Shown here piece after piece: positions 1-37,638 of a stretch of DNA of 37,638 nt. A program made the position numbers and the translations under genes. Position 1 is the first letter of the stretch. Each line of letters opens with the position of its first letter. Under the pieces are notes generated by a model that did no database searches, was not told where the DNA came from, and saw nothing but the letters and a program-made list of their open reading frames with translations. The DNA lies in NCBI RefSeq assembly GCF_000003605.2, contig NW_003134034.1, positions 1-37,638 of the forward strand, in the 5' to 3' direction. Origin of the DNA: Saccoglossus kowalevskii (lineage: Eukaryota; Hemichordata; Enteropneusta; Harrimaniidae).

Positions 1-35
1 CCATAGTAGAGCTTAATACAGGAAATCTGACATCA

Positions 36-1332: not shown

Positions 1333-4118
1333 GGAAATCTGACAACACAGTCACCACAGTAGAGCTCAATACGGAAAATCTTACAGCACAGTCACCACAG
1401 TAGAGCTCATCAGGGGAAATCTGACAACACAGTCACCACAGTAGAGCTCAATACAGGAACTCTGACAACACAGTCACCACAGTAGAGCTCAATACAGGAA
1501 ATCTGACAGCACAGTCACCATAGTAGAGCTTAATACAGGAACTCTGACAACACAGTTACCACAGTAGAGCTCAATACAGGAAATCTGACAACACAGTCAC
1601 CACAGTAGAACTCAATACAGGAAATCTGACAGCACAGACACCACAGTAGAGCTCAATACGGGAAATCTGACAACATAGTTGCCACAGTAGAGCTCAATAC
1701 AGGAAATCTGACAGCACAGACACCACAGTAGAGCTCAATACGGGAAATCTGACAACATAGTTGCCACAGTAGAGCTCAATACAGGAAATCTGACAGCACA
1801 GTCACCACAGTAGAGTTCAATACAGGAAATCTGACATCACAGTCACCACTGTAGAGCTCAATACAGGAACTCTGCCAGCACAGTCACCACAGTAGAGCTC
1901 AATACAGGAAATCTGACAGCACAGTCACCACAGTAGAGCTCAATACAGGAAATCTGACAACACAGTTACCACAGTAGAGCTCAATACAGGAACTCTGACA
2001 ACACAGTCACCACAGTAGAGCTCATCAGGGGAAATCTGACAGCACACTCACCACAATAGAGCTCAATACAGGAAATCTGACAACACAGTCACCACAGTAG
2101 AGCTCAATACAGGAAATCTAACAACGCAGTCACCACAGTAGAGCTCAAAACAGGAAATCTGACAACACAGTCACCACAGTAGAGCTCAATACAGGAAATC
2201 TAACAACACAGTCACCACAGCAGAGCTCAATACAGGAACTCTGACAACACAGTCACCACAGTAGAGCTCACCACGGGAAATTTGACAACACAGTCACCAC
2301 AGTAAAGCTCAATACAGGAACTCTGACAGCACAGTCACCACAGTAGAGCTCAATACAGGAACTCTGACAGCACAGTCACCACAGTAGAGCTCAAAACAGG
2401 AACTCTGACAGCACAGTCACCACAGTAGAGCTCAAAACAGGAACTCTGACATCACAGTCACTACAGTAGAGATCAATACAGGAACTCTGACAGCACAGTC
2501 ACCATAGTAGATCTTAATACAGGAACTCTGACAGCACAGTCACTACAGTAGAGCTCAATACAGGAACTCTGACAGCACAGTCACCACAGTAAAGCTCAAT
2601 ACAGAAACTCTGACAGCACAGTCACCACAGTAGATCTCAATACAGGAACTCTGACAGCACAGTCACCACAGTAGAGCTCAAAACAGGAACTCTGACAGCA
2701 CTGTCACCACAGTAGATCTCAAAACAGGAACTCTGACAGCACAGTCACTGCAGTAGAGATCAATACAGGAACTCTGACAGCACAGTCACCATAGTAGAGC
2801 TTAATACAGGAACTCTGACAGCACAGTCACTACATTAGAGCTCAATACAGGAACTCTGACAGCACAGTCACTACAGTAGAGCTCAATACAGGAACTCTGA
2901 CAGCACAGTCACCACAGTAGATCTCACCACGGGAAATTTGACAACACAGTCACCACAGTAATGCTCACCACGGGAAATCTGACAGCACAGTCACCACAGT
3001 AGAGCTCAATACGGGAAATCTGACAACACAGTCACCACAGTAGAGCACAATACAGGAACTCTGACAACACAGTCACCACAGTAGAGATCAATATAGGAAA
3101 TCTAACAACACAGTCACCACAGTAGAGCTCAATACAGGAACTCTGACAACACAGTCACCACAGTAGAGCTCAATACAGGAAATCTGACAGCACAGTCACC
3201 ATAGTAGAGCTTAATACAGGAAATCTGACATCACAGTCACCACTGTAGAGCTCAATACGGAAAATCTGACAGCACAGTCACCACAGTAGAGCTCAATACA
3301 GGAAATCTGACAACACAGTTACCACAGTAGAGCTCAATACAGGAACTCTGACAACACAGTCACCACAGTAGAGCTCATCAGGGGAAATCTGACAGCACAG
3401 TCACCACAGTAGAGCTCAATACAGGAAATCTGACATCACAGTCACCACTGTAGAGCTCAATACAGGAAATCTAACAACACAGTCACCACAGTAGAACTCA
3501 ATAAAGGAAATCTGACAACACAGTCACCACAGTAGAGCTCAACACAGGAACTCTGACAGCACAGTCACCACAGTAGAGCTCAATACGGAAAATCTTACAG
3601 CACAGTCACCACAGTAGAGCTCATCAGGGGAAATCTGACAACACAGTCACCACAGTAGAGCTTAATACAGGAACTCTGACAGCATAGTCACTACAGTAGA
3701 GCTCAATACAGGAACTCTGACAGCACAGTCACTACAGTAGAGCTCAATACAGGAACTCTGACAGCACAGTCACCACAGTAGATCTCACCACGGGAAATTT
3801 GACAACACAGTCACCACAGTAGAGCTCAATACGGGAAATTTGACAACACAGTCACCACAGTAGAGCACAATACAGGAACTCTGACAACACAGTCACCACA
3901 GTAGAGATCAATACAGGAAATCTAACAACACAGTCACCACAGTAGAGCTCAATACAGGAACTCTGACAACACAGTCACCACAGTAGAGCTCAATACAGGA
4001 AATCTGACAGCACAGTCACCATAGTAGAGCTTAATACAGGAAATCTGACATCACAGTCACCACTGTAGAGCACAATACAGGAACTCTGCCAGCACAGTCA
4101 CCACAGTAGAGCTCAATA

Positions 4119-4760
4119 CAGGAAATCTGACAACACAGTCACCACAGTAGATCTCAATACGGAAAATCTGACAGCACAGTCACCACAGTAGAGCTCAATA
4201 CAGGAAATCTGACAACACAGTTACCACAGTAGAGCTCAATACAGGAACTCTGACAACACAGTCACCACAGTAGAGCTCATCAGGGGAAATCTGACAGCAC
4301 AGTCACCACAGTAGAGCTCAATACAGGAAATCTGACATCACAGTCACCACTGTAGAGCTCAATACAGGAAATCTAACAACACAGTCACCACAGTAGAGCT
4401 CAATAAAGGAAATCTGACAACACAGTCACCACAGTAGAGCTCAACACAGGAACTCTGACAGCACAGTCACCACAGTAGAGCTCAATACAGGAAATCTGAC
4501 AACACAGTTACCACATTAGAGCTCAATACAGGAACTCTGACAACACAGTCACCACAGTAGAGCTCATCAGGGGAAATCTGACAGCACAGTCACCACAGTA
4601 GAGCTCAATACAGGAAATCTGACATCACAGTCACCACTGTAGAGCTCAATACAGGAAATCTAACAACACAGTCACCACAGTAGAGCTCAATAAAGGAAAT
4701 CTGACAACACAGTCACCACAGTAGAGCTCAACACAGGAACTCTGACAGCACAGTCACCAC
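4119..4760. repeat. Seven-monomer (287-bp) tandem duplication
   Basis: The series CAGTTACC, ATCAGGGG, GACATCA, CACTGTAG/TAACA, AATAAAGG and AACACAGG occurs twice. CTCATCAGGGG starts at 4276 and 4563 (287 bp = 7 units) and AATAAA at 4402 and 4689. Differences are minimal; the CAGTTACC unit reads CACAG in the first copy and CACATT in the second. In other HOR copies AACACAGG is followed by the ATCTTACAG unit, which here appears only after the second copy, so the first AACACAGG unit marks the join. Confidence 0.85.
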
Positions 4761-5151
4761 AGTAGAGCTCAATACGGAAAATCTTACAGCACAGTCACCA
4801 CAGTAGAGCTCATCAGGGGAAATCTGACAACACAGTCACCACAGTAGAGCTCAATACAGGAACTCTGACAACACAGTCACCACAGTAGAGCTCAATACAG
4901 GAAATCTGACAGCACAGTCACCATAGTAGAGCTTAATACAGGAACTCTGACAACACAGTTACCACAGTAGAGCTCAATACAGGAACTCTGACAACACAGT
5001 CACCACAGTAGAGCTCAATACAGGAAATCTGACAGCACAGTCACCATAGTAGAGCTTAATACAGGAACTCTGACAACACAGTTACCACAGTAGAGCTCAA
5101 TACAGGAAATCTGACAACACAGTCACCACAGTAGAACTCAATACAGGAAAT

Positions 5152-5325
5152 CTGACAGCACAGACACCACAGTAGAGCTCAATACGGGAAATCTGACAAC
5201 ATAGTTGCCACAGTAGAGCTCAATACAGGAAATCTGACAGCACAGACACCACAGTAGAGCTCAATACGGGAAATCTGACAACATAGTTGCCACAGTAGAG
5301 CTCAATACAGGAAATCTGACAGCAC
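5152..5325. repeat. Dimer (82-bp) duplication of CAGACACC and TAGTTGCC units
   Basis: The pair CAGACACC/ACGGG plus TAGTTGCC appears twice in a row. The same doubling exists at about 1635-1800, exactly 86 units away (TAGTT at 1676 and 5202). All other copies (9221, near 20,030, 22,300, 29,300, 31,600 and 36,000) have the pair once. The neighbouring GAGTTC unit is also shared (about 1813 and 5339). The two doubled loci therefore derive from one duplication that was later copied as part of a larger block. Confidence 0.85.
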
Positions 5326-7293
5326 AGTCACCACAGTAGAGTTCAATACAGGAAATCTGACATCACAGTCACCACTGTAGAGCTCAATACAGGAACTCTG
5401 CCAGCACAGTCACCACAGTAGAGCTCAATACAGGAAATCTGACAACACAGTCACCACAGTAGATCTCAATACGGAAAATCTGACAGCACAGTCACCACAG
5501 TAGAGCTCAATACAGGAAATCTGACAACACAGTTACCACAGTAGAGCTCAATACAGGAACTCTGACAACACAGTCACCACAGTAGAGCTCATCAGGGGAA
5601 ATCTGACAGCACACTCACCACAATAGAGCTCAATACAGGAAATCTGACAACACAGTCACCACAGTAGAGCTCAATACAGGAAATCTAACAACGCAGTCAC
5701 CACAGTAGAGCTCAAAACAGGAAATCTGACAACACAGTCACCACAGTAGAGCTCAATACAGGAACTCTGACAACACAGTCACCACAGTAGAGCTCAAAAC
5801 AGGAACTCTGACATCACAGTCACTACAGTAGAGATCAATACAGGAACTCTGACAGCACAGTCACCATAGTAGAGCTCAATAAAGGAAATCTGACAACACA
5901 GTCACCACAGTAATGCTCACCACGGGAAATCTGACAGCACAGTCACCACAGTAGAGCTCAATACGGGAAATCTGACAACACAGTCACCACAGTAGAGCAC
6001 AATACATGAACTCTGACAACACAGTCACCACAGTAGAGATCAATACAGGAAATCTAACAACACAGTCACCACAGTAGAGCTCAATACAGGAACTCTGACA
6101 ACACAGTCACCACAGTAGAGCTCAATACAGGAAATCTGACATCACAGTCACCACTGTAGAGCTCAATACAGGAACTCTGCCAGCACACTCACCACAGTAG
6201 AGCTAAATACAGGAAATCTGACAACACAGTCACCACAGTAGATCTCAATACGGAAAATCTGACAGCACAGTCACCACAGTAGAGCTCAATACAGGAAATC
6301 TGACAACACAGTTACCACAGTAGAGCTCAATACAGGAACTCTGACATCACAGTCACTACATTAGAGATCAATACAGGAACTCTGACAGCACAGTCACCAC
6401 AGTAGAGCTCAAAACAGGAACTCTGACATCACAGTCACTACATTAGAGATCAATACAGGAACTCTGACAGCACAGTCACCATAGTAGAGCTTAATACAGG
6501 AACTCTGACAGCACAGTCACCACAGTAATGCGTCACCACGGGAAATCTGACAGCACAGTCACCACAGTAGAGCTCAATACGGGAAATCTGACAACACAGT
6601 CACCACAGTAGAGCACAATACATGAACTCTGACAACACAGTCACCACAGTAGAGATCAATACAGGAAATCTAACAACACAGTCACCACAGTAGAGCTCAA
6701 TACAGGAACTCTGACAACACAGTCACCACAGTAGAGCTCAATACAGGAAATCTGACAGCACAGTCACCATAGTAGAGCTCAATACAGGAACTCTGACAAC
6801 ACAGTCACCACAGTAGAGCTCAATACAGGAAATCTGACAACACAGTCACCACAGTAGAGCTCAATACAGGAAATCTGACAGCACAGACACCACAGTAGAG
6901 CGCAATACGGGAAATCTGAAAACACAGTCGCCACAGTAGAGCTCAATACAGGAAATCTGACAGCACAGTCACCACAATAGAGCTCAATACAGGAAATCTG
7001 ACAGCACAGTCACCACAGTAGAGCTCAATACAGGAACTCTGACAGCACAGTCACCACAGTAGAGCTCAATACAGGAAATCTGACAACACAGTCACCACAG
7101 TAGAACTCAATACAGGAAATCTGACAGCACAGTCACTACAGTAGAGCTCAATACGGGAAATCTGACAGCACAGTTGCCACAGTAGAGCTCAATACAGGAA
7201 ATCTGACAGCACAGTCACCACAGTAGAGCTCAATACAGGAAATCTGACAACACAGTCACCACAGTAGAGCTCAATACAGGAACTCTGACAACA

Positions 7294-9425
7294 CAGTCAC
7301 CACAGTAGAGCTCACCACGGGAAATTTGACAACACAGTCACCACAGTAAAGCTCAATACAGGAACTCTGACAGCACAGTCACCACAGTAGAGCTCAATAC
7401 AGGAACTCTGACAGCACAGTCACCACAGTAGAGCTCAAAACAGGAACTCTGACATCACAGTCACTACAGTAGAGATCAATACAGGAACTCTGACAGCACA
7501 GTCACCATAGTAGAGCTTAATACAGGAACTCTGACAGCACAGTCACTACAGTAGAGCTCAATACAGGAACTCTGACAGCACAGGCACCACAGTAAAGCTC
7601 AATACAGGAACTCTGACAGCACAGTCACCACAGTAGATCTCAATACAGGAACTCTGACAGCACAGTCACCACAGTAGAGCTCAAAACAGGAACTCTGACA
7701 GCACTGTCACCACAGTAGATCTCAAAACAGGAACTCTGACAGCACAGTCACTACAGTAGAGATCAATACAGGAACTCTGACAGCACAGTCACCACAGTAG
7801 AGCTCAAAACAGGAACTCTGACATCACACTCACTACAGTAGAGATCAATACAGGAACTCTGACAGCACAGTCACCATAGTAGAGCTTAAAACAGGAACTC
7901 TGACAGCACAGTCACTACAGTAGAGCTCAATACAGGAACTCTGACAGCACAGTCACCACAGTAAAGCTCAATACAGGAACTCTGACAGCACAGTCACCAC
8001 AGTAGATCTCAATACAGGAACTCTGACAGCACAGTCACCATAGTAGAGCTCAAAACAGGAACTCTGACAGCACTGTCACCACAGTAGATCTCAAAACAGG
8101 AACTCTGACAGCACAGTCACTACAGTAGAGATCAATACAGGAACTCTGACAGCACAGTCACCATAGTATAGCTTAATACAGGAACTCTGACAGCACAGTC
8201 ACTACAGTAGAGCTCAATACAGGAACTCTGACAGCACAGTCACTACAGTAGAGCTCAATACAGGAACTCTGACAGCACAGTCACCACAGTAGATCTCACC
8301 ACGGGAAATTTGACAACACAGTCACCACAGTAATGCTCACCACGGGAAATCTGACAGCACAGTCACCACAGTAGAGCTCAATACGGGAAATTTGACAACA
8401 CAGTCACCACAGTAGAGCACAATACAGGAACTCTGACAACACAGTCACCACAGTAGAGATCAATACAGGAAATCTAACAACACAGTCACCACAGTAGAGC
8501 TCAATACAGGAAATCTGACAGCACAGTCACCATAGTAGAGCTTAATACAGGAAATCTGACATCACAGTCACCACTGTAGAGCACAATACAGGAACTCTGC
8601 CAGCACAGTCACCACAGTAGAGCTCAATACAGGAAATCTGACAACACAGTCACCACAGTAGATCTCAATACGGAAAATCTTACAGCACAGTCACCACAGT
8701 AGAGCTCAATACAGGAAATCTGACAACACAGTTACCACAGTAGAGCTCAATACAGGAACTCTGACAACACAGTCACCACAGTAGAGCTCATCAGGGGAAA
8801 TCTGACAGCACAGTCACCACTGTAGAGCTCAATACAGGAAATCTAACAACACAGTCACCACAGTAGAGCTCAATAAAGGAAATCTGACAACACAGTCACC
8901 ACAGTAGAGCTCAACACAGGAACTCTGACAGCACAGTCACCACAGTAGAGCTCAATACGGAAAATCTTACAGCACAGTCACCACAGTAGAGCTCATCAGG
9001 GGAAATCTGACAACACAGTCACCACAGTAGAGCTCAATACAGGAACTCTGACAACACAGTCACCACAGTAGAGCTCAATACAGGAAATCTGACAGCACAG
9101 TCACCATAGTAGAGCTTAATACAGGAACTCTGACAACACAGTTACCACAGTAGAGCTCAATACAGGAAATCTGACAACACAGTCACCACAGTAGAACTCA
9201 ATACAGGAAATCTGACAGCACAGACACCACAGTAGAGCTCAATACGGGAAATCTGACAACATAGTTGCCACAGTAGAGCTCAATACAGGAAATCTGACAG
9301 CACAGTCACCACAGTAGAGCTCAATACAGGAACTCTGCCAGCACAGTCACCACAGTAGAGCTCAATACAGGAAATCTAACAACACAGTCACCACAGTAGA
9401 GCTCAATACAGGAACTCTGACAACA
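7294..9425. repeat. Quasi-HOR copy, 52 monomers, most complete reference copy
   Basis: I assigned every unit here to a class. Module 1 starts at 7294 with ACCACGGG, TAAAGC (7335), a consensus unit, AAAACAGG (7417), GAGATC (7458), CATAG (7499), CACTAC (7540), TAAAGC (7581), AGATCT (7622), AAAACAGG (7663), CTGTCACC (7704) and GAGATC (7745). A nine-unit block then repeats at 7786-8154. Module 2 runs from CATAG at 8155 through ACCACGGG (8278), TAATGC (8319) and GCACAATA (8401) to CTGCCA (8565). Module 3 runs from 8606 through CAGTTACC (8729), ATCAGGGG (8770), AATAAAGG (8852), AACACAGG (8893), ATCTTACAG (8934), GAACTC (9180), CAGACACC (9221) and TAGTTGCC (9262) to the last unit at 9385. Without the nine-unit duplication the copy is 43 units. 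Confidence 0.85.
7417..8154. repeat. Nine-monomer (369-bp) tandem duplication within a HOR copy
   Basis: Units AAAACAGG/CATCA, GAGATC, CATAG, CACTAC, TAAAGC, AGATCT, AAAACAGG, CTGTCACC and GAGATC occupy 7417-7785 and again 7786-8154. Copy 1 has CAGGCACC in its TAAAGC unit and CCACAG in its later AAAACAGG unit; copy 2 has CACTCACTAC and CCATAG at the matching places. It accounts for nine of the 52 units in this HOR copy. Confidence 0.85.
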
Positions 9426-12400
9426 CAGTCACCACAGTAGAGCTCACCACGGGAAATTTGACAACACAGTCACCACAGTAAAGCTCAATACAGGAACTCT
9501 GACAGCACAGTCACCACAGTAGAGCTCGATACAGGAACTCTGACAGCACAGTCACCACAGTAGAGCTCAAAACAGGAACTCTGACAGCACAGTCACCACG
9601 GTAGAGCTCAAAACAGGAATTCTGACATCACAGTCACTACAGTAGAGATCAATACAGGAACTCTGACAGCACAGTCACCATAGTAGAGCTTAATACAGGA
9701 ACTCTGACAGCACAGTCACCACAGTAGAGCTCAAAACAGGAACTCTGACAGCACAGTCACCACAGTAGAGCTCAAAACAGGAACTCTGACATCACAGTCA
9801 CTACAGTAGAGATCAATACAGGAACTCTGACAGCACAGTCACCATAGTAGAGCTTAATACAGGAACTCTGACAGCACAGTCACTACAGTAGAGCTCAATA
9901 CATGAACTCTGACAGCACAGTCACCACAGTAAAGCTCAATACAGGAACTCTGACAGCACAGTCAACACAGTAGATCTCAATACAGGAACTCTGACAGCAC
10001 AGTCACCACAGTAGAGCTCTAAACAGGAACTCTGACAGCACTGTCACCACAGTAGATCTCAAAACAGGAACTCTGACAGCACAGTCACAACAGTAGAGAT
10101 CAATACAGGAACTCTGACAGCACAGTCACCATAGTAGAGCTTAATACAGGAACTCTGACAGCACAGTCACTACAGTAGAGCTCAATACAGGAACTCTGAC
10201 AGCACAGTCACTACAGTAGAGCTCAATACAGGAACTCTGACAGCACAGTCACCACAGTAGAGCTCAATACGGGAAATTTGACAACACAGTCACCACAGTA
10301 GAGCTCAATACAGGAACTCTGACAACACAGTCACCACAGTAGAGCTCAATACAGGAAATCTGACAGCACAGTCACCATAGTAGAGCTTAATACAGGAAAT
10401 CTGACATCACAGTCACCACTGTAGAGCACAATACAGGAACTCTGCCAGCACAGTCACCACAGTAGAGCTCAATACAGGAAATCTGACAACACAGTCACCA
10501 CAGTAGATCTCAATACGGAAAATCTGACAGCACAGTCACCACAGTAGAGCTCAATACAGGAAATCTGACAACACAGTTACCACATTAGAGCTCAATACAG
10601 GAACTCTGACAACACAGTCACCATAGTAGAGCTTAATACAGGAAATCTGACAGCACAGTCACCACAGTAGAGCTCAATACAGGAAATCTAACAACACAGT
10701 CACCACAGTAGAGCTCAATACAGGAAATCTGACAGCACAGTCACCATAGTAGAGCTTAATACAGGAAATCTGACATCACAGTCACCACTGTAGAGCACAA
10801 TACAGGAACTCTGCCAGCACAGTCACCACAGTAGAGCTCAATACAGGAAATCTGACAACACAGTCACCACAGTAGATCTCAATACGGAAAATCTGACAGC
10901 ACAGTCACCACAGTAGAGCTCAATACAGGAAATCTGACAACACAGTTACCACATTAGAGCTCAATACAGGAACTCTGACAACACAGTCACCATAGTAGAG
11001 CTTAATACAGGAACTCTGACAGCACAGTCACTACAGTAGAGCTCAATAAAGGAACTCTGACAGCACAGTCACCACAGTAAAGCTCAATACAGGAACTCTG
11101 ACAGCACTGTCACCACAGTAGATCTCAAAACAGGAACTCTGACAGCACAGTCACTACAGTAGAGATCAATACAGGAACTCTGACAGCACAGTCACCATAG
11201 TATAGCTTAATACAGGAACTCTGACAGCACAGTCACTACAGTAGAGCTCAATACAGGAACTCTGACAGCACAGTCACTACAGTAGAGCTCAATACGGGAA
11301 ATTTGACAACACAGTCACCACAGTAGAGCACAATACAGGAATTGTGACAACACAGTCACCACAGTAGAGATCAATACAGGAAATCTGACAACACAGTCAC
11401 CACAGTAGAGCTCAACACAGGAACTCTGACAGCACAGTCACCACAGTAGAGCTCAATACGGAAAATCTTACAGCACAGTCACCACAGTAGAGCTCATCAG
11501 GGGAAATCTGACAACACAGTCACCACAGTAGAGCTCAATACAGGAACTCTGACAGCACAGTCACTACAGTAGAGCTCAATACAGGAACTCTGACAGCACA
11601 GTCACCACAGTAAAGCTCAATACAGGAACTCTGACAGCACAGTCACCACAGTAGATCTCAATACAGGAACTCTGACAGCACAGTCACCACAGTAGAGCTC
11701 AAAACAGGAACTCTGACAGCACTGTCACCACAGTAGATCTCAAAACAGGAACTCTGACAGCACAGTCACAACAGTAGAGATCAATACAGGAACTCTGACA
11801 GCACAGTCACCATAGTAGAGCTTAATACAGGAACTCTGACAGCACAGTCACTACAGTAGAGCTCAATACAGGAACTCTGACAGCACAGTCACTACAGTAG
11901 AGCTCAATACAGGAACTCTGACAGCACAGTCACCACAGTAGAGCTCAATACGGGAAATTTGACAACACAATCACCACAGTAGAGCACAATACAGGAACTC
12001 TGACAACACAGTCACCACAGTAGAGATCAATACAGGAAATCTAACAACACAGTCACCACAGTAGAGCTCAATACAGGAACTCTGACAACACAGTCACCAC
12101 AGTAGAGCTCAATACAGGAAATCTGACAGCACAGTCACCATAGTAGAGCTTAATACAGGAAATCTGACATCACAGTCACCACTGTAGAGCACAATACAGG
12201 AACTCTGCCAGCACAGTCACCACAGTAGTGCTCAATACAGGAAATCTGACAACACTGTCACCACAGTAGATCTCAATACGGAAAATCTGACAGCACAGTC
12301 ACCACAGTAGAGCTCAATACAGGAAATCTGACAACACAGTTACCACATTAGAGCTCAATACAGGAACTCTGACAACACAGTCACCACAGTAGAGCTCATC

Positions 12401-14263
12401 AGGGGAAATCTGACAGCACAGTCACCACAGTAGAGCTCAATACAGGAAATCTGACATCACAGTCACCACTGTAGAGCTCAATACAGGAAATCTAACAACA
12501 CAGTCACCACAGTAGAGCTCAATAAAGGAAATCTGACAACACAGTCACCACAGTAGAGCTCAACACAGGAACTCTGACAGCACAGTCACCACAGTAGAGC
12601 TCAATACGGAAAATCTTACAGCACAGTCACCACAGTAGAGCTCATCAGGGGAAATCTGACAACACAGTCACCACAGTAGAGCTCAATACAGGAACTCTGA
12701 CAGCACAGTCACTACAGTAGAGCTCAATACAGGAACTCTGACAGCACAGTCACCACAGTAAAGCTCAATACAGGAACTCTGACAGCACAGTCACCACAGT
12801 AGATCTCAATACAGGAACTCTGACAGCACAGTCACCACAGTAGAGCTCAAAACAGGAACTCTGACAGCACTGTCACCACAGTAGATCTCAAAACAGGAAC
12901 TCTGACAGCACAGTCACAACAGTAGAGATCAATACAGGAACTCTGACAGCACAGTCACCATAGTAGAGCTTAATACAGGAACTCTGACAGCACAGTCACT
13001 ACAGTAGAGCTCAATACAGGAACTCTGACAGCACAGTCACCACAGTAAAGCTCAATACAGGAACTCTGACAGCACAGTCACCACAGTAGATCTCAATACA
13101 GGAACTCTGACAGCACAGTCACCACAGTAGAGCTCAAAACAGGAACTCTGACAGCACTGTCACCACAGTAGATCTCAAAACAGGAACTCTGACAGCACAG
13201 TCACTGCAGTAGAGATCAATACAGGAACTCTGACAGCACAGTCACCATAGTAGAGCTTAATACAGGAACTCTGACAGCACAGTCACTACAGTAGAGCTCA
13301 ATACAAGAACTCTGACAGCACAGTCACTACAGTAGAGCTCAATACAGGAACTCTGACAGCACAGTCACCACAGTAGATCTCACCACGGGAAATTTGACAA
13401 CACGGTCACCACAGTAATGCTCACCACGGGAAATCTGACAGCACAGTCACCACAGTAGAGCTCAATACGGGAAATCTGACAACACAGTCACCACAGTAGA
13501 GCACAATACAGGAACTCTGACAACACAGTCACCGCAGTAGAGCTCAATACAGGAAATCTGACAGCACAGTCACCATAGTAGAGCTTAATACAGGAAATCT
13601 GACATCACAGTCACCACAGTAGAGCTCAATACGGAAAATCTGACAGCACAGTCACCACAGTAGAGCTCAATACAGGAAATCTGACAACACAGTTACCACA
13701 GTAGAGCTCAATGCAGGAACTCTGACAACACAGTCACCACAGTAGAGCTCATCAGGGGAAATCTGACAGCACAGTCACCACAGTAGAGCTCAATACAGGA
13801 AATCTTACATCACAGTCACCACTGTAGAGCTCAATACAGGAACTCTGCCAGCACAGTCACCACAGTAGAGCTCAATACAGGAAATCTGACAACACAGTCA
13901 CCACAGTAGATCTCAATACGGAAAATCTGACAGCACAGTCACCACAGTAGAGCTCAATACAGGAAATCTGACAACACAGTTACCACAGTAGAGCTCAATA
14001 CAGGAACTCTGACAACACAGTCACCACAGTAGAGCTCATCAGGGGAAATCTGACAGCACACTCACCACAGTAGAGCTCAATACAGGAAATCTGACAACAC
14101 AGTCACCACAGTAGAGCTCAATACAGGAAATATAACAACACAGTCACCACAGTAGAGCTCAAAACAGGAAATCTGACAACACAGTCACCACAGTAGAGCT
14201 CAATACAGGAAATCTAACAACACAGTCACCACAGTAGAGCTCAATACAGGAACTCTGACAACA
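9426..14263. repeat. Compound quasi-HOR segment, 118 monomers
   Basis: From the starter at 9426 to the one at 14264 there are exactly 118 units and no net indel. It is probably two or more HOR copies run together. The left end (9426 to about 10,300) is a long-range copy of 29,479 to about 30,350 at a constant offset of 20,053, including the rare CATGAACTC unit at 9901. The middle contains a nine-unit tandem duplication (10,328-11,065) and a segment shared with 23.3-24.1 kb. Module 1 appears repeatedly (near 11.55, 12.7 and 13.0 kb) with CAGTCACAAC variants, while the TAATGC unit appears only once, at 13,403. Confidence 0.75.
10328..11065. repeat. Nine-monomer (369-bp) tandem duplication spanning modules 2 and 3
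   Basis: Units at 10,328-10,696 (AATCTGACAGCA, GACATCA, CTGCCA, consensus, AGATCTCAATACGG, consensus, CAGTTACCACATT, CATAG, TAACA) repeat from 10,697. The CAGTTACCACATT units start at 10,574 and 10,943. The first eight units correspond; the ninth differs because copy 2 runs on into CACTAC/AATAAAGG. The second copy, not the first, matches the segment at 23,286. Confidence 0.85.
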
Positions 14264-23248: not shown

Positions 23249-23490
23249 CACCACTGTAGAGCACAATACAGGAACTCTGCCAGCACAGTCACCACAGTAG
23301 AGCTCAATACAGGAAATCTGACAGCACAGTCACCATAGTAGAGCTTAATACAGGAAATCTGACATCACAGTCACCACTGTAGAGCACAATACAGGAACTC
23401 TGCCAGCACAGTCACCACAGTAGAGCTCAATACAGGAAATCTGACAACACAGTCACCACAGTAGATCTCAATACGGAAAATCTGACAGCA
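23249..23490. repeat. Three-monomer (123-bp) tandem duplication
   Basis: The series AATCTGACAGCA, CATAG/GCTTAA/GACATCA and CACTGTAG/CTGCCA appears twice in succession. The CACTGT marks at 23,252 and 23,375 lie 123 bp (three units) apart, and elsewhere this triplet occurs once per HOR. It is the smallest odd-numbered duplication I could place with confidence. It sits at the left edge of a segment shared with 10.7-11.4 kb, where the same junction is part of a nine-unit duplication. Confidence 0.8.
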
Positions 23491-25663: not shown

Positions 25664-26379
25664 CAGTCACCACAGTAGAGCTCAATACAGGAACTCTGAC
25701 AGCACAGTCACCACAGTAGAGCTCAATACGGAAAATCTGACAGCACAGTCACCACAGTAGAGCTCATCAGGGGAAATCTGACAGCACAGTCACCATAGTA
25801 GAGCTCAATACAGGAAATCTGACAACACAGTCACCACAGTAGAGCTCAATACAGGAAATCTAACAACACAGTCACCACAGTAGAGCTCAATAAAGGAAAT
25901 CTGACAACACAGTCACCACAGTATAGCTCAACACAGGAACTCTGACAGCACAGTCACCACAGTAGAGCTCAATACGGAAAATCTTACAGCACAGTCACCA
26001 CAGTAGAGCTCATCAGGGGAAATCTGACAGCACAGTCACCACAGTAGAGCTCAATACAGGAAATCTGACAACACATTCACCACAGTAGAGCTCAATACAG
26101 GAAATCTGACAACACAGTCACCACAGTAGAGCTCAATACAGGAAATCTGACAACACAGTCACCACAGTAGAGCTCAATACAGGAAATCTAACAACACAGT
26201 CACCACAGTAGAGCTCAATACAGGAACTCTGACAGAACAGTCACCACAGTAGAGCTCATCAGGGGAAATCTGACAGCAGAGTCACCACATTAGAGCTCAA
26301 TACAGGAAATCTGACAACACAGTCACCACAGTAGAGCTCAATACAGGAAATCTAACAACACAGTCACCACAGTAGAGCT

Positions 26380-26645
26380 CAATACAGGAAATTCTGACAA
26401 CACATTCACCACAGTAGAGCTCAATACAGGAAATCTAACAACACAGTCACCATAGTAGAGCTCAATACAGGAACTCTGACAACACAGTCACCACAGTAGA
26501 GCTCAATACAGGAAATCTGAACAGTACAGTCACCATAGTAGAGCTTAATACAGGATCTCTGACAACACAGTCACCACAGTAGAGCTCAATACAGGAAATC
26601 TGACAACACAGTCACCACAGTAGAGCTCAATACATGAAAATCTGA
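26380..26645. repeat. Cluster of three single-base insertions
   Basis: GAAATTCTGAC near 26,391, CTGAACAGTAC near 26,520 and CATGAAAATCTG near 26,634 each make a 42-bp unit. Three of ten register-changing indels in 37.6 kb fall in 250 bp, all in or next to the GGAAATCTGAC motif. They may mark a segment that exchanges less with the rest of the array, or local base-calling errors. Confidence 0.7.
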
Positions 26646-27020
26646 CAGCACAGACACCACAGTAGAGCTCAATACAGGAAATCTGACAACACAGTCACCA
26701 CAGTAGAGCTCAATACAGGAAATCTAACAACACAGTCACCACAGTAGAGCTCAATACAGGAAATCTGACAACACATTCACCACAGTAGAGCTCAATACAG
26801 GAAATCTAACAACACAGTCACCATAGTAGAGCTCAATACAGGAACTCTGACAGAACAGTCACCACAGTAGAGCTCATCACGGGAAATCTGACAGCACAGT
26901 CACCACAGTAGAGCTCAAAACAGGAACTCTGACAACACAGTCACCACAGTAGAGCTCAATACAGGAAATCTGACAGTACAGTCACCATAGTAGAGCTTAA
27001 TACAGGATCTCTGACAACAC
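26541..27020. repeat. Eleven-monomer spaced duplication (GGATCTCTGACA unit)
   Basis: The unit with GCTTAATACAGGATCTCTG occurs at about 26,541 and 26,993. The CAGGATCT marks are 452 bp apart, which is 11 units plus the inserted base near 26,634. Flanking units also match: a GACAGTA ending upstream and consensus plus CAGACACC units downstream. GGATCTCTGACAACA is otherwise seen only at 24,709 and 25,242, so all four copies probably come from one founder unit within this domain. Confidence 0.75.
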
Positions 27021-27675
27021 AGTCACCACAGTAGAGCTCAATACAGGAAATCTGACAACACAGTCACCACAGTAGAGCTCAATACAGGAAATCTGACAGC
27101 ACAGACACCACAGTAGAGCTCAATACGGGAAATCTGACAACACAGTTGCCACAGTAGAGCTCAATACAGGAAATCTGACAGCACAGTCACCACAGTAGAG
27201 CTCAATACAGGAAATCTGACATCACAGTCACCACTGTAGAGCTCAATACAGGAACTCTGCCAGCACAGTCACCACAGTAGAGCTCAATACAGGAAATCTG
27301 ACAACACAGTCACCACAGTAGATCTCAATACGGAAAATCTGACAGCACAGTCACCACAGCAGAGCTCAATACAGGAAATCTGACAACACAGTTACCACAG
27401 TAGAGCTCAATACAGGAACTCTGACAACACAGTCACCACAGTAGAGCTCAACAGGGGAAATCTGACAGCACACTCACCACAGTAGAGCTCAATACAGGAA
27501 ATCTGACAACACAGTCACCACAGTAGAGCTCAATACAGGAAATCTAACAACACAGTCACCACAGTAGAGCTCAAAACAGGAAATCTGACAACACAGTCAC
27601 CACAGCAGAGCTCAATACAGGAAATCTAACAACACAGTCACCACAGTAGAGCTCAATACAGGAACTCTGACAAGA

Positions 27676-29478
27676 CAGTCACCACAGTAGAGCTCACCAC
27701 GGGAAATTTGACAACACAGTCACCACAGTAAAGCTCAATACAGGAACTCTGACAACACAGTCACCACAGTAGAGCTCAATACAGGAACTCTGACAGCACA
27801 GTCACCACAGTAGAGCTCAAAACAGGAACTCTGACAGCACAGTCACCACAGTAGAGCTCAAAACAGGAACTCTGACATCACAGTCACATCAGTAGAGATC
27901 AATACAGGAACTCTGACAGCACAGTCACCATAGTAGAGCTTAATACAGGAACTCTGACAGCACAGTCACTACAGTAGAGCTCAATGCAGGAACTCTGACA
28001 GCACAGTCACACAGTAGATCTCAATACAGGAACTCTGACAGCACAGTCACCACAGTAGAGCTCTAAACAGGAACTCTGACAGCACTGTCACCACAGTAGA
28101 TCTCAAAACAGGATCTCTGACAGCACAGTCACAACAGTAGAGATCAATACAGGAACTCTGACAGCACAGTCACCATAGTAGAGCTTAATACAGGAACTCT
28201 GACAGCACAGTCACTACAGTAGAGCTCAATACAGGAACTCTGACAGCACAGTCACTACAGTAGAGCTCAATACAGGAACTCTGACAGCACAGTCACCACA
28301 GTAGAGCTCAATACGGGAAATTTGACAACACAGTCACCACAGTAGAGCACAATACAGGAACTCTGACAACACAGTCACCACAGTAGAGATCAATACAGGA
28401 AATCTAACAACACAGTCACCACAGTAGAGCTCAATACAGGAACTCTGACAACACAGTCACCACAGTAGAGCTCAATACAGGAAATCTGACAGCACAGTCA
28501 CCATAGTAGAGCTTAATACAGGAAATCTGACAGCACAGTCACCATAGTAGAGCTTAATACAGGAAATCTGACATCACAGTCACCACTGTAGAGCACAATA
28601 CAGGAACTCTGCCAGCACAGTCACCACAGTAGAGCTCAATACAGGAAATCTGACAACACTGTCACCACAGTAGATCTCAATACGGAAAATCTGACAGCAC
28701 AGTCACCACAGTAGAGCTCAATACAGGAAATCTGACAACACAGTTACCACATTAGAGCTCAATACAGGAACTCTGACAACACAGTCACCACAGTAGAGCT
28801 CATCAGGGGAAATCTGACAGCACAGTCACCACAGTAGAGCTCAATACAGGAAATCTGACATCACAGTCACCACTGTAGAGCTCAATACAGGAAATCTAAC
28901 AACACAGTCACCACAGTAGAGCTCAATAAAGGAAATCTGACAACACAGTCACCACAGTAGAGCTCAACACAGGAACTCTGACAGCACAGTCACCACAGTA
29001 GAGCTCAATACGGAAAATCTTACAGCACAGTCACCACAGTAGAGCTCATCAGGGGAAATCTGACAACACAGTCACCACAGTAGAGCTCAATACAGGAACT
29101 CTGACAACACAGTCACCACAGTAGAGCTCAATACAGGAAATCTGACAGCACAGTCACCATAGTAGAGCTTAATACAGGAACTCTGACAACACAGTTACCA
29201 CAGTAGAGCTCAATACAGGAAATCTGACAACACAGTCACCACAGTAGAACTCAATACAGGAAATCTGACAGCACAGACACCAGAGTAGAGCTCAATACGG
29301 GAAATCTGACAACATAGTTGCCACAGTAGAGCTCAATACAGGAAATCTGATAGCACAGTCACCACAGTAGAGCTCAATACAGGAACTCTGCCAGCACAGT
29401 CACCACAGTAGAGCTCAATACAGGAAATCTAACAACACAGTCACCACAGTAGAGCTCAATACAGGAACTCTGACAACA
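27676..29478. repeat. Quasi-HOR copy, 44 monomers, second reference copy
   Basis: Assigned unit by unit, this copy follows the order of 7294-9425 without the nine-unit duplication. Relative to the 46-unit order it lacks the second TAAAGC unit (at a junction near 28,010 where one base is also missing) and the ACCACGGG and TAATGC pair of module 2. It gains one extra CATAG/GCTTAA unit (about 28,500-28,560). Module 3 is complete from the AGATCTCAATACGG unit to the CAGACACC, TAGTTGCC and CTGCCA units. It supports a true HOR length near 46 monomers. Confidence 0.85.
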
Positions 29479-31774
29479 CAGTCACCACAGTAGAGCTCAC
29501 CACGGGAAATTTGACAACACAGTCACCACAGTAAAGCTCAATACAGGAACTCTGACAGCACAGTCACCACAGTAGAGCTCAATACAGGAACTCTGACAGC
29601 ACAGTCACCACAGTAGAGCTCAAAACAGGAACTCTGACAGCACAGTCACCACAGTAGAGCTCAAAACAGGAACTCTGACATCACAGTCACTACAGTAGAG
29701 ATCAATACAGGAACTCTGACAGCACAGTCACCATAGTAGAGCTTAATACAGGAACTCTGACAGCACAGTCACCACAGTAGAGCTCAAAACAGGAACTCTG
29801 ACAGCACAGTCACCACAGTAGAGCTCAAAACAGGAACTCTGACATCACAGTCACTACAGTAGAGATCAATACAGGAACTCTGACAGCACAGTCACCATAG
29901 TAGAGCTTAATACAGGAACTCTGACAGCACAGTCACTACAGTAGAGCTCAATACATGAACTCTGACAGCACAGTCACCACAGTAAAGCTCAATACAGGAA
30001 CTCTGACAGCACAGTCACCACAGTAGATCTCAATACAGGAACTCTGACAGCACAGTCACCACAGTAGAGCTCAAAACAGGAACTATGACAGCACTGTCAC
30101 CACAGTAGATCTCAAAACAGGAACTCTGACAGCACAGTCACAACAGTAGAGATCTATACAGGAACTCTGACAGCACAGTCACCATAGTAGAGCTTAATAC
30201 AGGAACTCTGACAGCACAGTCACTACAGTAGAGCTCAATACAGGAACTCTGACAGCACAGTCACTACAGTAGAGCTCAATACAGGAACTCTGACAGCACA
30301 GTCACCACAGTAGAGCTCAATACGGGAAATTTGACAACACAGTCACCACAGTAGAGCACAATACAGGAACTCTGACAACACAGTCACCACAGTAGAGATC
30401 AATACAGGAAATCTAACAACACAGTCACCACAGTAGAGCTCAATACAGGAACTCTGACAACACAGTCACCACAGTAGAACTCAATACAGGAACTCTGACA
30501 GCACAGTCACCATAGTAGAGCTTAATACAGGAACTCTGACAGCACAGTCACTACAGTAGAGCTCAATACAGGAACTCTGACAGCACAGTCACTACAGTAG
30601 AGCTCAATACAGGAACTCTGACAGCACAGTCACCACAGTAGAGCTCAATACGGGAAATTTGACAACACAGTCACCACAGTAGAGCACAACACAGGAACTC
30701 TGACAACACAGTCACCACAGTAGAGATCAATACAGGAAATCTAACAACACAGTCACCACAGTAGAGCTCAATACAGGAACTCTGACAACACAGTCACCAC
30801 AGTAGAGCTCAATACAGGAAATCTGACAGCACAGTCACCATAGTAGAGCTTAATACAGGAAATCTGACATCACAGTCACCACTGTAGAGCACAATACAGG
30901 AACTCTGCCAGCACAGTCACCACAGTAGAGCTCAATACAGGAAATCTGACAACACTGTCACCACAGTAGATCTCAATACGGAAAATCTGACAGCACAGTC
31001 ACCACAGTAGAGCTCAATACAGGAAATCTGACAACACAGTTACCACATTAGAGCTCAATACAGGAACTCTGACAACACAGTCACCACAGTAGAGCTCATC
31101 AGGGGAAATCTGACAGCACAGTCACCACAGTAGAGCTCATCAGGGGAAATCTGACATCACAGTCACCACTGTAGAGCTCAATACAGGAAATCTAACAACA
31201 CAGTCACCACAGTAGAGCTCAATAAAGGAAATCTGACAACACAGTCACCACAGTAGAGCTCAACACAGGAACTCTGACAGCACAGTCACCACAGTAGAGC
31301 TCAATACGGAAAATCTTACAGCACAGTCACCACAGTAGAGCTCATCAGGGGAAATCTGACAACACAGTCACCACAGTAGAGCTCAATACAGGAACTCTGA
31401 CAACACAGTCACCACAGTAGAGCTCAATACAGGAAATCTGACAGCACAGTCACCATAGTAGAGCTTAATACAGGAACTCTGACAACACAGTTACCACAGT
31501 AGAGCTCAATACAGGAAATCTGACAACACAGTCACCACAGTAGAACTCAATACAGGAAATCTGACAGCACAGACACCAGAGTAGAGCTCAATACGGGAAA
31601 TCTGACAACAAAGTTGCCACAGTAGAGCTCAATACAGGAAATCTGACAGCACAGTCACCACAGTAGAGCTCAATACAGGAACTCTGCCAGCACAGTCACC
31701 ACAGTAGAGCTCAATACAGGAAATCTAACAACACAGTCACCACAGTAGAGCTCAATACAGGAACTCTGACAACA
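29479..31774. repeat. Quasi-HOR copy, 56 monomers
   Basis: Exactly 56 units, no net indel. The first 0.9 kb is a long-range copy of 9426 to about 10,300. Modules 1 and 2 then appear partly twice: the run CATAG, CACTAC, CACTAC, ACGGGAAATTT, GCACAATA, GAGATC/TAACA occurs at about 30.18-30.42 kb and again at about 30.48-30.76 kb, which accounts for the extra units. Module 3 is complete, with one doubled ATCAGGGG unit near 31,095-31,145, and ends in CAGACACC, TTGCC and CTGCCA units. Confidence 0.8.
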
Positions 31775-34397
31775 CAGTCACCACAGTAGAGCTCACCACG
31801 GGAAATTTGACAACACAGTCACCACAGTAAAGCTCAATACAGGAACTCTGACAGCACAGTCACCACAGTAGAGCTCAATACAGGAACTCTGACAGCACAG
31901 TCACCACAGTAGAGCTCAAAACAGGAACTCTGACATCACAGTCACTACAGTAGAGATCAATACAGGAACTCTGACAGCACAGTCACCATAGTAGAGCTTA
32001 ATACAGGAACTCTGACAGCACAGTCACTACAGTAGAGCTCAATACAGGAACTCTGACAGCACAGGCACCACAGTAAAGCTCAATACAGGAACTCTGACAG
32101 CACAGTCACCACAGTAGATCTCAATACAGGAACTCTGACAGCACAGTCACCACAGTAGAGCTCAAAACAGGAACTCTGACAGCACTGTCACCACAGTAGA
32201 TCTCAAAACAGGAACTCTGACAGCACAGTCACTACAGTAGAGATCAATACAGGAACTCTGACAGCACAGTCACCATAGTAGAGCTTAATACAGGAACTCT
32301 GACAGCACAGTCACTACAGTAGAGCTCAATACAGGAACTCTGACAGCACAGTCACTACAGTAGAGCTCAATACAGGAACTCTGACAGCACAGTCACCACA
32401 GTAGATCCCACCACGGGAAATTTGACAACACAGTCACCACAGTAATGCTCACCGCGGGAAATCTGACAGCACAGTCACCACAGTAGAGCTCAATACGGGA
32501 AATCTGACAACACAGTCACCACATTAGAGCACAATACAGGAACTCTGACAACACAGTCACCACAGTAGAGATCAATACAGGAAATCTAACAACACAGTCA
32601 CCACAGTAGAGCTCAATACAGGAACTCTGACAACACAGTCACCACAGTAGAGCTCAAAACAGGAAATCTGACAGCACAGTCACCATAGTAGAGCTTAATA
32701 CAGGAAATCTGACATCACAGTCACCACTGTAGAGCTCAATACAGGAACTCTGCCAGCACAGTCACCACAGTAGAGCTCAATACAGGAAATATGACAACAC
32801 AGTCACCACAGTAGATCTCAATACGGAAAATCTGACAGCACAGTCACCACAGTAGAGCTCAATACAGGAAATCTGACAACACAGTTACCACAGTAGAGCT
32901 CAATACAGGAACTCTGACAACACAGTCACCACAGTAGAGCTCATCAGGGGAAATCTGACAGCACAGTCACCACAGTAGAGCTCAATACAGGAAATCTGAC
33001 ATCACAGTCACCACTGTAGAGCTCAATACAGGAAATCTAACAACACAGTCACCACAGTAGAGCTCAATAAAGGAAATCTGACAACACAGTCACCACAGTA
33101 GAGCTCAACACAGGAACTCTGACAGCACAGTCACCACAGCAGAGCTCAATACGGAAAATCTTACAGCACAGTCACCACAGTAGAGCTCATCGGGGAAATC
33201 TGACAACACAGTCACCACAGTAGAGCTCAATACAGGAACTCTGACAACACAGTCACCACAGTAGAGCTCAAAACAGGAACTCTGACATCACAGTCACTAC
33301 AGTAGAGATCAATACAGGAACTCTGACAGCACAGTCACCATAGTAGATCTTAATACAGGAACTCTGACAGCACAGTCACTACAGTAGAGCTCAATACAGG
33401 AACTCTGACAGCACAGTCACCACAGTAAAGCTCAATACAGAAACTCTGACAGCACAGTCACCACAGTAGATCTCAATACAGGAACTCTGACAGCACAGTC
33501 ACCACAGTAGAGCTCAAAACAGGAACTCTGACAGCACTGTCACCACAGTAGATCTCAAAACAGGAACTCTGACAGCACAGTCACTGCAGTAGAGATCAAT
33601 ACAGGAACTCTGACAGCACAGTCACCATAGTAGAGCTTAATACAGGAACTCTGACAGCACAGTCACTACATTAGAGCTCAATACAGGAACTCTGACAGCA
33701 CAGTCACTACAGTAGAGCTCAATACAGGAACTCTGACAGCACAGTCACCACAGTAGATCTCACCACGGGAAATTTGACAACACAGTCACCACAGTAATGC
33801 TCACCACGGGAAATCTGACAGCACAGTCACCACAGTAGAGCTCAATACGGGAAATCTGACAACACAGTCACCACAGTAGAGCACAATACAGGAACTCTGA
33901 CAACACAGTCACCACAGTAGAGTTCAATACAGGAAATCTGACATCACAGTCACCACTGTAGAGCTCAATACAGGAACTCTGCCAGCACAGTCACCACAGT
34001 AGAGCTCAATACAGGAAATCTGACAACACAGTCACCACAGTAGATCTCAATACGGAAAATCTGACAGCACAGTCACCACAGTAGAGCTCAATACAGGAAA
34101 TCTGACAACACAGTTACCACAGTAGAGCTCAATACAGGAACTCTGACAACACAGTCACCACAGTAGAGCTCATCAGGGGAAATCTGACAGCACACTCACC
34201 ACAATAGAGCTCAATACAGGAAATCTGACAACACAGTCACCACAGTAGAGCTCAATACAGGAAATCTAACAACGCAGTCACCACAGTAGAGCTCAAAACA
34301 GGAAATCTGACAACACAGTCACCACAGTAGAGCTCAATACAGGAAATCTAACAACACAGTCACCACAGTAGAGCTCAATACAGGAACTCTGACAACA
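31775..34397. repeat. Quasi-HOR copy, 64 monomers
   Basis: This copy holds 64 units minus one base near 33,191 (TCATCGGGGAAA). It has two passages through modules 1 and 2, with TAATGC units at 32,431 and 33,783. The first passage carries AGATCCCACCACGGG, CACCGCGGG and CACATTAGAGCAC, shared with 15.5-15.65 kb. The second carries AGATCTTAAT, CAGAAACTC and CACTGCAG, shared with 2.4-3.0 kb. The copy is therefore a mosaic whose halves have different nearest relatives. Confidence 0.8.
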
Positions 34398-36611
34398 CAG
34401 TCACCACAGTAGAGCTCACCACGGGAAATTTGACAACACAGTCACCACAGTAAAGCTCAATACAGGAACTCTGACAGCACAGTCACCACAGTAGAGCTCA
34501 ATACAGGAACTCTGACAGCACAGTCACCACAGTAGAGCTCAAAACAGGAACTCTGACAGCACAGTCACCACTGTAGAGCTCAAAACAGGAACTCTGACAT
34601 CACAGTCACTACAGTAGAGATCAATACAGGAACTCTGACAGCACAGTCACCATAGTAGAGCTTAATACAGGAACTCTGACAGCACAGTCACTACAGTAGA
34701 GCTCAATACAGGAACTCTGACAGCACAGTCACCACAGTAAAGCTCAATACAGGAACTCTGACAGCACAGTCACCACAGTAGATCTCAATACAGGAACTCT
34801 GACAGCACAGTCACCACAGTAGAGCTCAAAACAGGAACTCTTGACAGCACTGTCACCACAGTAGATCTCAAAACAGGAACTCTGACAGCACAGTCACCAT
34901 AGTAGAGCTTAATACAGGAACTCCGACAGCACAGTCACTACATTAGAGCTCAATACAGGAACTCTGACAGCACAGTCACTACAGTAGAGCTCAATACAGG
35001 AACTCTGACAGCACAGTCACCACAGTAGATCTCACCACGGGAAATTTGACAACACAGTCACCACAGTAATGCTCACCACGGGAAATCTGACAGCACAGTC
35101 ACCACAGTAGAGCTCAATACGGGAAATCTGACAACACAGTCACCACAGTAGAGCACAATACAGGAACTCTGACAACACAGTCACCACAGTAGAGATCAAT
35201 ATAGGAAATCTAACAACACAGTCACCACAGTAGAGCTCAATACAGGAACTCTGACAACACAGTCACCACAGTAGAGCTTAATACAGGAAATCTGACAGCA
35301 CAGTCACCATAGTAGAGCTTAATACAGGAAATCTGACATCACAGTCACCACTGTAGAGCTCACTACGGAAAATCTGACAGCACAGTCACCACAGTAGAGC
35401 TCAATACAGGAAATCTGACAACACAGTTACCACAGTAGAGCTCAATACAGGAACTCTGACAACACAGTCACCACAGTAGAGCTCATCAGGGGAAATCTGA
35501 CAGCACAGTCACCACAGTAGAGCTCAATACAGGAAATCTGACATCACAGTCACCACTGTAGAGCTCAATACAGGAAATCTAACAACACAGTCACCACAGT
35601 AGAGCTCAATAAAGGAAATCTGACAACACAGTCACCACAGTAGAGCTCAACACAGGAACTCTGACAGCACAGTCACCACAGTAGAGCTCAATACGGAAAA
35701 TCTTACAGCACAGTCACCACAGAAGAGCTCATCGGGGAAATCTGACAACACAGTCACCACAGTAGAGCTCAATACAGGAACTCTGACAACACAGTCACCA
35801 CAGTAGAGCTTAATACAGGAAATCTGACAGCACAGTCACCATAGTAGAGCTTAATACAGGAACTCTGACAACACAGTTACCACAGTAGAGCTCAATACAG
35901 GAAATCTGACAACACAGTCACCACAGTAGAACTCAATAGAGGAAATCTGACAGCACAGACACCACAGTAGAGCTCAATACGGGAAATCTGACAACATAGT
36001 TGCCACAGTAGAGCTCAATACAGGAAATCTGACAGCACAGTCACCACAGTAGAGCTCAATACAGGAAATCTGACATCACAGTCACCACTGTAGAGCACAA
36101 TACAGGAACTCTGCCAGCACAGTCACCACAGTAGAGCTCAATACAGGAAATCTGACAACACAGTCACCACAGTAGATCTCAATACGGAAAATCTGACAGC
36201 ACAGTCACCACAGTAGAGCTCAATACAGGAAATCTGACAACACAGTTACCACAGTAGAGCTCAATACAGGAACTCTGACAACACAGTCACCACAGTAGAG
36301 CTCATCAGGGGAAATCTGACAGCACACTCACCACAGTAGATCTCAATACGGAAAATCTGACAGCACAGTCACCACAGTAGAGCTCAATACAGGAAATCTG
36401 ACAACACAGTTACCACAGTAGAGCTCAATACAGGAACTCTGACAACACAGTCACCACAGTAGAGCTCAATACAGGAAATCTAACAACGCAGTCACCACAG
36501 TAGAGCTCAAAACAGGAAATCTGACAACACAGTCACCACAGTAGAGCTCAATACAGGAAATCTAACAACACAGTCACCACAGTAGAGCTCAATACAGGAA
36601 CTCTGACAACA
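34398..36611. repeat. Quasi-HOR copy, 54 monomers
   Basis: Exactly 54 units; an insertion near 34,840 (CTCTTGACAGC) and a deletion near 35,732 (CATCGGGGAAA) cancel. Module 1 lacks a GAGATC unit near 34,890. Module 2 contains the TAATGC unit at 35,055 and a CAATATAGG unit (about 35,197) that is otherwise found only near 3090. Module 3 is followed by a second partial passage of AGATCTCAATACGG, CAGTTACC, AACGCAGTC and AAAACAGGAAATC units that lead to the starter at 36,612. Confidence 0.8.
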
Positions 36612-37638
36612 CAGTCACCACAGTAGAGCTCACCACGGGAAATTTGACAACACAGTCACCACAGTAAAGCTCAATACAGGAACTCTGACAGCACAGTCAC
36701 CACAGTAGAGCTCAATACAGGAACTCTGACAGCACAGTCACCACAGTAGAGCTCAAAACAGGAACTCTGACAGCACAGTCACCACAGTAGAGCTCAAAAC
36801 AGGAACTCTCACATCACAGTCACTACAGTAGAGATCAATACAGGAACTCTGACAACACAGTCACCACAGTAGAGCTCACCACGGGAAATTTGACAACACA
36901 GTCACCACAGTAAAGCTCAATACAGGAACTCTGACAGCACAGTCACCACAGTAGAGCTCAATACAGGAACTCTGACAGCACAGTCACCACAGTAGAGCTC
37001 AAAACAGGAACTCTGACAGCACAGTCACCACAGTAGAGCTCAAAACAGGAACTCTGACATCACACTCACTACAGTAGAGATCAATACAGGAACTCTGACA
37101 GCACAGTCACCATAGTAGAGCTTAATACAGGAACTCTGACAGCACAGTCACTACAGTAGAGCTCAATACAGGAACTCTGACAGCACAGTCACCACAGTAA
37201 AGCTCAATACAGGAACTCTGACAGCACAGTCACCACAGTAGATCTCAATACAGGAACTCTGACAGCACAGTCACCATAGTAGAGCTCAAAACAGGAACTC
37301 TGACAGCACTGTCACCACAGTAGATCTCAAAACAGGAACTCTGACAGCACAGACACTACAGTAGAGATCAATACAGGAACTCTGACAACACAGTCACCAC
37401 AGTAGAGCTCACCACGGGAAATTTGACAACACAGTCACCACAGTAAAGCTCAATACAGGAACTCTGACAGCACAGTCACCTCAGTAGAGCTCAATACAGG
37501 AACTCTGACAGCACAGTCACCACAGTAGAGCTCAAAACAGGAACTCTGGCAGCACAGTCACCACAGTAGAGCTCAAAACAGGAACTCTGACATCACACTC
37601 ACTACAGTAGAGAATCATACGAGAACTCTTGACGGCAC
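36612..37638. repeat. Copy of 20,170-21,196: 6-, 13- and 6-unit module 1 fragments
   Basis: Starters lie at 36,612, 36,858 and 37,391, spaced 6 and 13 units, as at 20,170, 20,416 and 20,949. The offset is 16,442 bp (401 units plus the net indel). Private variants match: CTCTCACATC (about 36,806 and 20,365), CACTCACTAC, CACCTCAGTAG and CTCTGGCAGC. The hybrid GAGATC/GACAACA junction units are also shared (36,817-36,857; 37,350-37,390). The match runs to the end of the window and probably continues beyond it. Confidence 0.9.
37612..37638. other. Distorted sequence end, probable unpolished contig edge
   Basis: The final unit should read GAGATCAATACAGG then AACTCTGACAGCA. It reads GAGAATCATACGAG then AACTCTTGACGGCA: an inserted and a deleted A, a disturbed CAGG, an extra T, and A to G in ACAGCA. 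That is about five edits in 27 bases, against about ten indels in the preceding 37.6 kb. It looks like raw-read error at a contig or read end. Confidence 0.75.

Follow-up and report, generated by a model that had tools for sequence, protein, structure and literature searches.

Irregular higher-order repeats (HORs) occur in plants. In animals, the chicken CNM satellite of the acrocentric centromeres has a 41-bp monomer, and its divergent monomers are organised into HORs of 26-98 monomers (PMC9974502); the same source calls the dyad symmetry of the sate-21 motif similar to that in CNM. HORs in which monomer types are repeated within the unit are termed cascading HORs (PMC11050224), while reported long alpha HORs include the human chromosome 21 52mer (PMC12385485), an orangutan 58mer (PMC12428378) and a 59mer (PMC11276891). 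Lemur centromeric HORs are built of monomers of 41-548 bp and vary in length between centromeres (PMC13228423, preprint). In crocodilians, satellites with a 41-bp monomer are 21+20-bp dimers, and the word 'higher-order' is absent from the main text of the paper describing them (PMC10900743).

Here we describe an array of 41-bp monomers in a window of 37,638 nucleotides, the window being the whole stretch of DNA that was analysed. The array is a higher-order repeat, badly fragmented. It resembles chicken CNM in monomer length and in the size of its unit, as both forms found here, of 46 and 55 units, are inside the CNM range (PMC9974502), and it resembles the alpha 52mer, 58mer and 59mer in the number of monomers per unit (PMC12385485, PMC12428378, PMC11276891). 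The strangeness which an earlier note on this DNA had seen in so long an HOR made of so short a monomer is therefore weak. The motif TTTTCnnnnnGAAAA, given in the same paper for sate-21 and not the CNM sequence itself, has 0 matches in the window (PMC9974502). The likeness to lemur HORs consists of the 41-bp lower limit of monomer length and of the variable HOR length (PMC13228423, preprint), whereas the crocodilian satellites share the monomer length only, their dimers having no counterpart in our array, which is without an internal half-repeat (PMC10900743).

Cascading alpha HORs are similar to the array in that monomer types recur within the unit and variants come from loss or reshuffling of entire runs, but their canonical copies amount to 65% (15mer) and 94% (20mer), against 0 of 16 intervals here, and their monomer is ~171 bp long instead of 41 bp (PMC11050224). 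The alpha 52mer, unlike the array, has two complete copies 0.2% apart (PMC12385485). In a regular (Willard-type) HOR each monomer type is present once and an intact canonical copy prevails; the array has neither of these features, with 37 classes in 55 positions and no intact copy, so the earlier note was right to set it apart from that type. It shares with cascading HORs the repeated monomer types, while a canonical copy accompanied by variants was not found in 37.6 kb, although a longer array might hold some. No description of an HOR without any intact copy was found among the passages covered by a narrow literature search. The organisation is of a known kind; what is unusual is the degree of fragmentation, with no copy intact in the window.

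The array and its monomers

The window consists of the following two parts:

1..37613, forward strand: 41-bp satellite monomer array, head-to-tail, uninterrupted, in one orientation, ~917 units
37614..37638, forward strand: the last 25 bases of the window, with several small indels and substitutions relative to the monomer

The terminal stretch is probably the end of a contig or read that was left unpolished. Tandem Repeats Finder (TRF) run on the window reported period 41, 917.3 copies and 90% matches over 1..37612. Dynamic-programming cutting from base 36 gave 917 units, namely 906 of 41 bp, 8 of 42 bp and 3 of 40 bp. Outside the array end there are ten off-length units, and only three of them form a cluster: the 42-bp units at 26361, 26485 and 26609, which follow one another at a regular spacing of three units. 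By the same cutting there are 181 distinct unit sequences, 89 of them singletons, and the monomers are ~10% apart from one another.

A coding repeat was rejected because no ORF of at least 60 amino acids is present in the window in any of the six frames, open ends included, and an RNA gene because no Rfam family matched the window at gathering score. Single-strand folding of three 123-base pieces was no better than that of their shuffles (z 1.40, 0.74 and 0.06). Origin from half-monomers (20+21) was rejected as well, no internal lag rising above shuffled (p 0.87).

CpG observed/expected is 0.079 across the window, and such strong depletion suggests a methylated eukaryote genome. Of 147 CpGs in the window 126 are in the context ACGG, where the consensus unit has ACAG, as is expected of CpG decay. 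No match was obtained for 1.5 kb of the window against plasmids and against phages, for 32-base and 19-base monomer patterns in viral contigs, or for a 22-base pattern in prokaryote genome contigs, which is as expected of a eukaryote satellite; six monomer fragments searched as letters in the literature gave no match either. The window is non-coding satellite DNA, and its host is most likely a eukaryote whose genome carries CpG methylation.

Order of the monomer classes

Two cuttings were used. The first was greedy, and not all of its units are in register, three of them having 14-19 mismatches; in it, a class was defined as an exact 41-mer seen at least 4 times, which gave 49 classes comprising 730 of the 916 units, and the remaining 186 units were assigned to the nearest class. 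This cutting underlies the figures for entropy, 4-mer recurrence, context prediction, majority walk and autocorrelation, as well as the junction tests based on permuted pairings and identity tracts. The main figures (template breaks, hybrids, identity, distance and runs) were obtained with the dynamic-programming cutting. Identity counts by template position leave out the 11 units that are not 41 bp long and thus cover 906 units, while the context-only identity test also leaves out the first three units and covers 903 of 917.

Copies of the order were delimited by monomers of class P:

2250..2290, forward strand: starter monomer 1 (class P, template position 1), exact match
7294, 9426, 14264, 14838, 16683, 18734, 20170 and 20416, forward strand: further starters (class P), exact match
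20949, 27676, 29479, 31775, 34398, 36612, 36858 and 37391, forward strand: the last of these other 16 starters (class P), exact match

All 17 starter coordinates of the earlier note fall exactly on this one class, and its 16 spacings of 123, 52, 118, 14, 45, 50, 35, 6, 13, 164, 44, 56, 64, 54, 6 and 13 units were reproduced without change; its span of 2250..37638 for the order needs correction, as the array actually begins at base 1. The note had named a class order no better than shuffled as an outcome that would speak against it, and the observed order is far from shuffled. Its conditional entropy is 1.45 bits, compared with 3.21 ± 0.02 in 100 shuffles, and recurring monomer 4-mers account for 52.6% of positions against 0.01% after shuffling. 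Of the 914 positions, 848 have a context that is found elsewhere as well; at 655 of these the two preceding classes correctly predicted the next one, while five shuffles yielded 14-20 correct predictions of 451-470. A walk following the majority next class, begun from four starts, settled into a 46-class cycle when the context order was 3, 6 or 8; with orders 4 and 5 the cycle was shorter. The claimed order of about 46 classes is thereby recovered at three of five context orders, but a 55-position template fits better.

With the 55-position template (2,255 bp) the array is covered with 111 breaks at a cost of 2718, as against 128 breaks and a cost of 3044 with 46 positions; shuffled templates (20 shuffles each) needed on average 683 and 698 breaks, respectively. 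Exact agreement with the 55-mer template was noted for 644 of 917 units. When both forms were allowed as branches, the number of breaks was 104, and 868 of the 917 units were within one difference. In the class string the long form has ten classes where the 46-mer has one, and both the short form (l-u-O) and the long form (l-U-h-A-Q-A-R-I-A-O-m-O) are recurrent. The 46-mer is a shorter form of the 55-position template, and the order is better described as one of ~55 units. The template comprises 37 distinct classes, and in the first cutting each of its positions is visited 7 to 26 times. It was derived from the very data that it is meant to describe, by reading their class string, and as none of its copies is intact it stands for an inferred ancestor and not an observed unit. 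An older layer of 7 or 20 units inside the template was rejected, as its top lag, 20 (0.916), lies within permutations (p 0.117).

The higher-order character of the array is seen in a test that uses the preceding classes and never the unit's own sequence. When nothing but the two preceding classes is shared, identity between units is 97.1% (47.3% exact, 4,988 pairs), and it is 97.5% when three are shared (3,170 pairs), while all pairs of the 903 units give 89.9% (2.0% exact, 407,253 pairs). Since units of the same context are so much more alike than all pairs, which is the gap that defines an HOR, the array counts as one; in the general sense, too, its unit is repeated in copies that resemble one another far more closely than the monomers do. 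At a shared template position, identity between units is 98.5% (55.6% exact, 7,608 pairs), and between different positions it is 89.7% (1.0% exact, 402,357 pairs), values that are partly circular, as units are placed by their own similarity, and the context-only value is lower.

Fixed-lag autocorrelation was too weak to be accepted as sole proof of an HOR. Lags 55 and 56 reach 0.059, equal to lags 64 and 109, and the maxima of 500 shuffles at lags 40-60 have a mean of 0.045 and a top value of 0.062; no single lag exceeds lag 7 (0.074), and a raised value is also seen at lag 13. The mean over lags 40-60 is nevertheless 0.0419 versus 0.0333 (z 6.5), a value reached by none of 2000 shuffles. Of the dominant diagonal at 44-56 units that had been predicted, only a broad rise at 40-60 was found, with no dominant peak, so the prediction is weakly borne out. 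Fixed-lag autocorrelation shows just this raised band because no copy is intact. Iterated gapped self-alignment of the class string produced long alignments, but its masking was too greedy for further use.

Breaks, junctions and distant blocks

The features to which this section refers are given below:

31898..33249, forward strand: longest break-free template run, 33 units
8809..10344, forward strand: block repeated almost identically at 28862-30397, over 1536 bp with 10 mismatches and at a distance of 489 units (ungapped self-comparison)
20127..21171, forward strand: block present again at 36569-37613, over 1045 bp with 2 mismatches
23950..26900, forward strand: diverged zone of 72 units, 2.5% from the template versus 0.75% elsewhere

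Every one of the 16 starter-to-starter intervals contains at least one break, and the median run between breaks is 6 units (~250 bp). The breaks are in register, and the description of the array as a quasi-HOR with copy length changing by whole monomers proved correct. Of 81 distinct junctions, 17 are recurrent and together hold 47 of the 111 events; the recurring ones are separated by a median distance of 270 units and share a context of 2 to 36 units.

In the junction tests on the dynamic-programming cutting, 3 of the 111 junctions, situated beside units of other length, were dropped, and 78 of the 81 distinct ones were used. Similarity of junction partners shows a small excess over permuted pairings (0.913 vs 0.906, p 0.003), and identity tracts at junctions have a median of 24 compared with 16 for random ones. 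Among the 54 distinct junctions with monomer-edge mismatches 13 are perfect within-monomer hybrids, while controls gave 4.6 on average and none of 1000 reached 13; the other 41 are no clean hybrids.

The two long block pairs place near-identical sequences of 1.0-1.5 kb at a distance of 16-20 kb, and both members of the pair 20127-21171 and 36569-37613 have the same two nested partial duplications, with starters 6 and 13 units apart. For units at the same template position, identity does not fall with distance: it is 0.985 at 20-60 units and 0.986 at 500-900 units, and the Spearman coefficient between distance and identity is 0.027, with 0.010 ± 0.013 for permuted data.

Twenty of the 111 breaks are located in the diverged zone, as is a tandem duplication of 13 units (24598-25130 and 25131-25663) with 2 mismatches in 533 bp. 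Portions of the order are preserved there, with some positions occupied by different classes, and the zone may represent an older branch of this HOR.

Origin of the order and its significance

The best explanation, to which we assign a probability of about 0.8, is that one unit of ~55 monomers was amplified and then reshuffled in register at two scales. Diverged monomers would have been amplified together as one such unit (2.26 kb), which would later have been cut and reshuffled in register through gains and losses of whole monomers, leaving no intact copy in 37.6 kb. Recombination or slippage during replication may have caused the reshuffling. Many of the breaks could go back to small steps involving a few monomers, by slippage or unequal exchange, and copies already broken could have been spread by very large blocks which, at ~150-300 units (6-12 kb), exceed the HOR in length; such spreading would explain both the recurrence of the same breaks far apart and the similarity that stays flat with distance. 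We infer these steps from the observed pattern, and the combination of small whole-unit gains and losses with duplication of very large blocks is the one we favour.

A toy simulation with 9 hand-set settings, 12 runs each and half of the events small, was carried out without fitting. Tandem blocks with a mean of 20-60 units gave Spearman coefficients of -0.05 to -0.12 on average, while block means of 150-300 units combined with small steps gave -0.01 to 0.02. Large tandem blocks left on average 70, 152 and 249 breaks, compared with the observed 104-111. Block insertion at random places also removed the fall with distance, but produced 185-350 breaks. Some template positions are lost in every setting, with a mean of 42-53 of the 55 remaining, and none of the 9 matches every observed value.

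The same observations can be read in other ways. Two or more HOR families (the 46-mer, the 55-mer and the variant at 24-27 kb) could have been amplified independently and interleaved, with no single ancestor that was trimmed. Recurrence of both the short and the long form would suit such a history, as would the threefold divergence of the zone at 23950-26900, but the forms have the same classes and most of the order in common and are found alternately along the array, so we regard it as unlikely. It is also conceivable that there is no higher-order unit at all, and that nested local duplications of short runs (e.g. 7 or 13) left the order of 46 or 55 as a by-product. The prominence of lags 7 and 13 in the autocorrelation points that way, together with exactly repeated runs of 8-12 units at lags 13 and 28 and the shorter cycles of the majority walk at orders 4 and 5. 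However, short duplications hardly account for a 55-position order that covers 917 units with 111 breaks instead of ~683, with repeated visits to every template position, and similarity is flat with distance, whereas in the small-block simulations it falls on average. This reading seems to us quite improbable.

Finally, the breaks might be misjoins introduced when a regular HOR array was assembled. An error-like stretch closes the window, the longest exact repeat is 694 bp, and a unique 127-mer starts at just 38.8% of positions, so that a short-read assembly would fail here. Long reads would be placeable, as a unique 511-mer starts at 96.7% of positions, and the median run from break to break is far below long-read length. 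The breaks moreover recur with shared context, and some of them are hybrids inside monomers, which makes an assembly artefact very improbable.

Within the history of one amplified and reshuffled unit, a further proposal is that the HOR is kept just as an order, with turnover by blocks larger than the HOR and without a local homogenisation gradient. Same-position monomers are ~97-98.5% alike, equally at less than 1 kb and at 20-37 kb. We consider the proposal tentative and rather doubtful; if it is true, amplification would act on something other than the single HOR copy.

Satellite arrays of this kind are usually located in centromeric, pericentromeric or subtelomeric heterochromatin, and the array may perhaps lie in one of them. 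A centromere function is conceivable; the window contains 0 CENP-B boxes and 0 copies of TTAGGG/CCCTAA, and neither count decides centromere identity.

With regard to detection, a strong order of which every copy is broken can all but escape fixed-lag autocorrelation, and probably other period-based HOR callers as well. The array offers a compact and fully readable case of a long HOR made from a very short monomer, in which gains and losses of units can be traced break by break.
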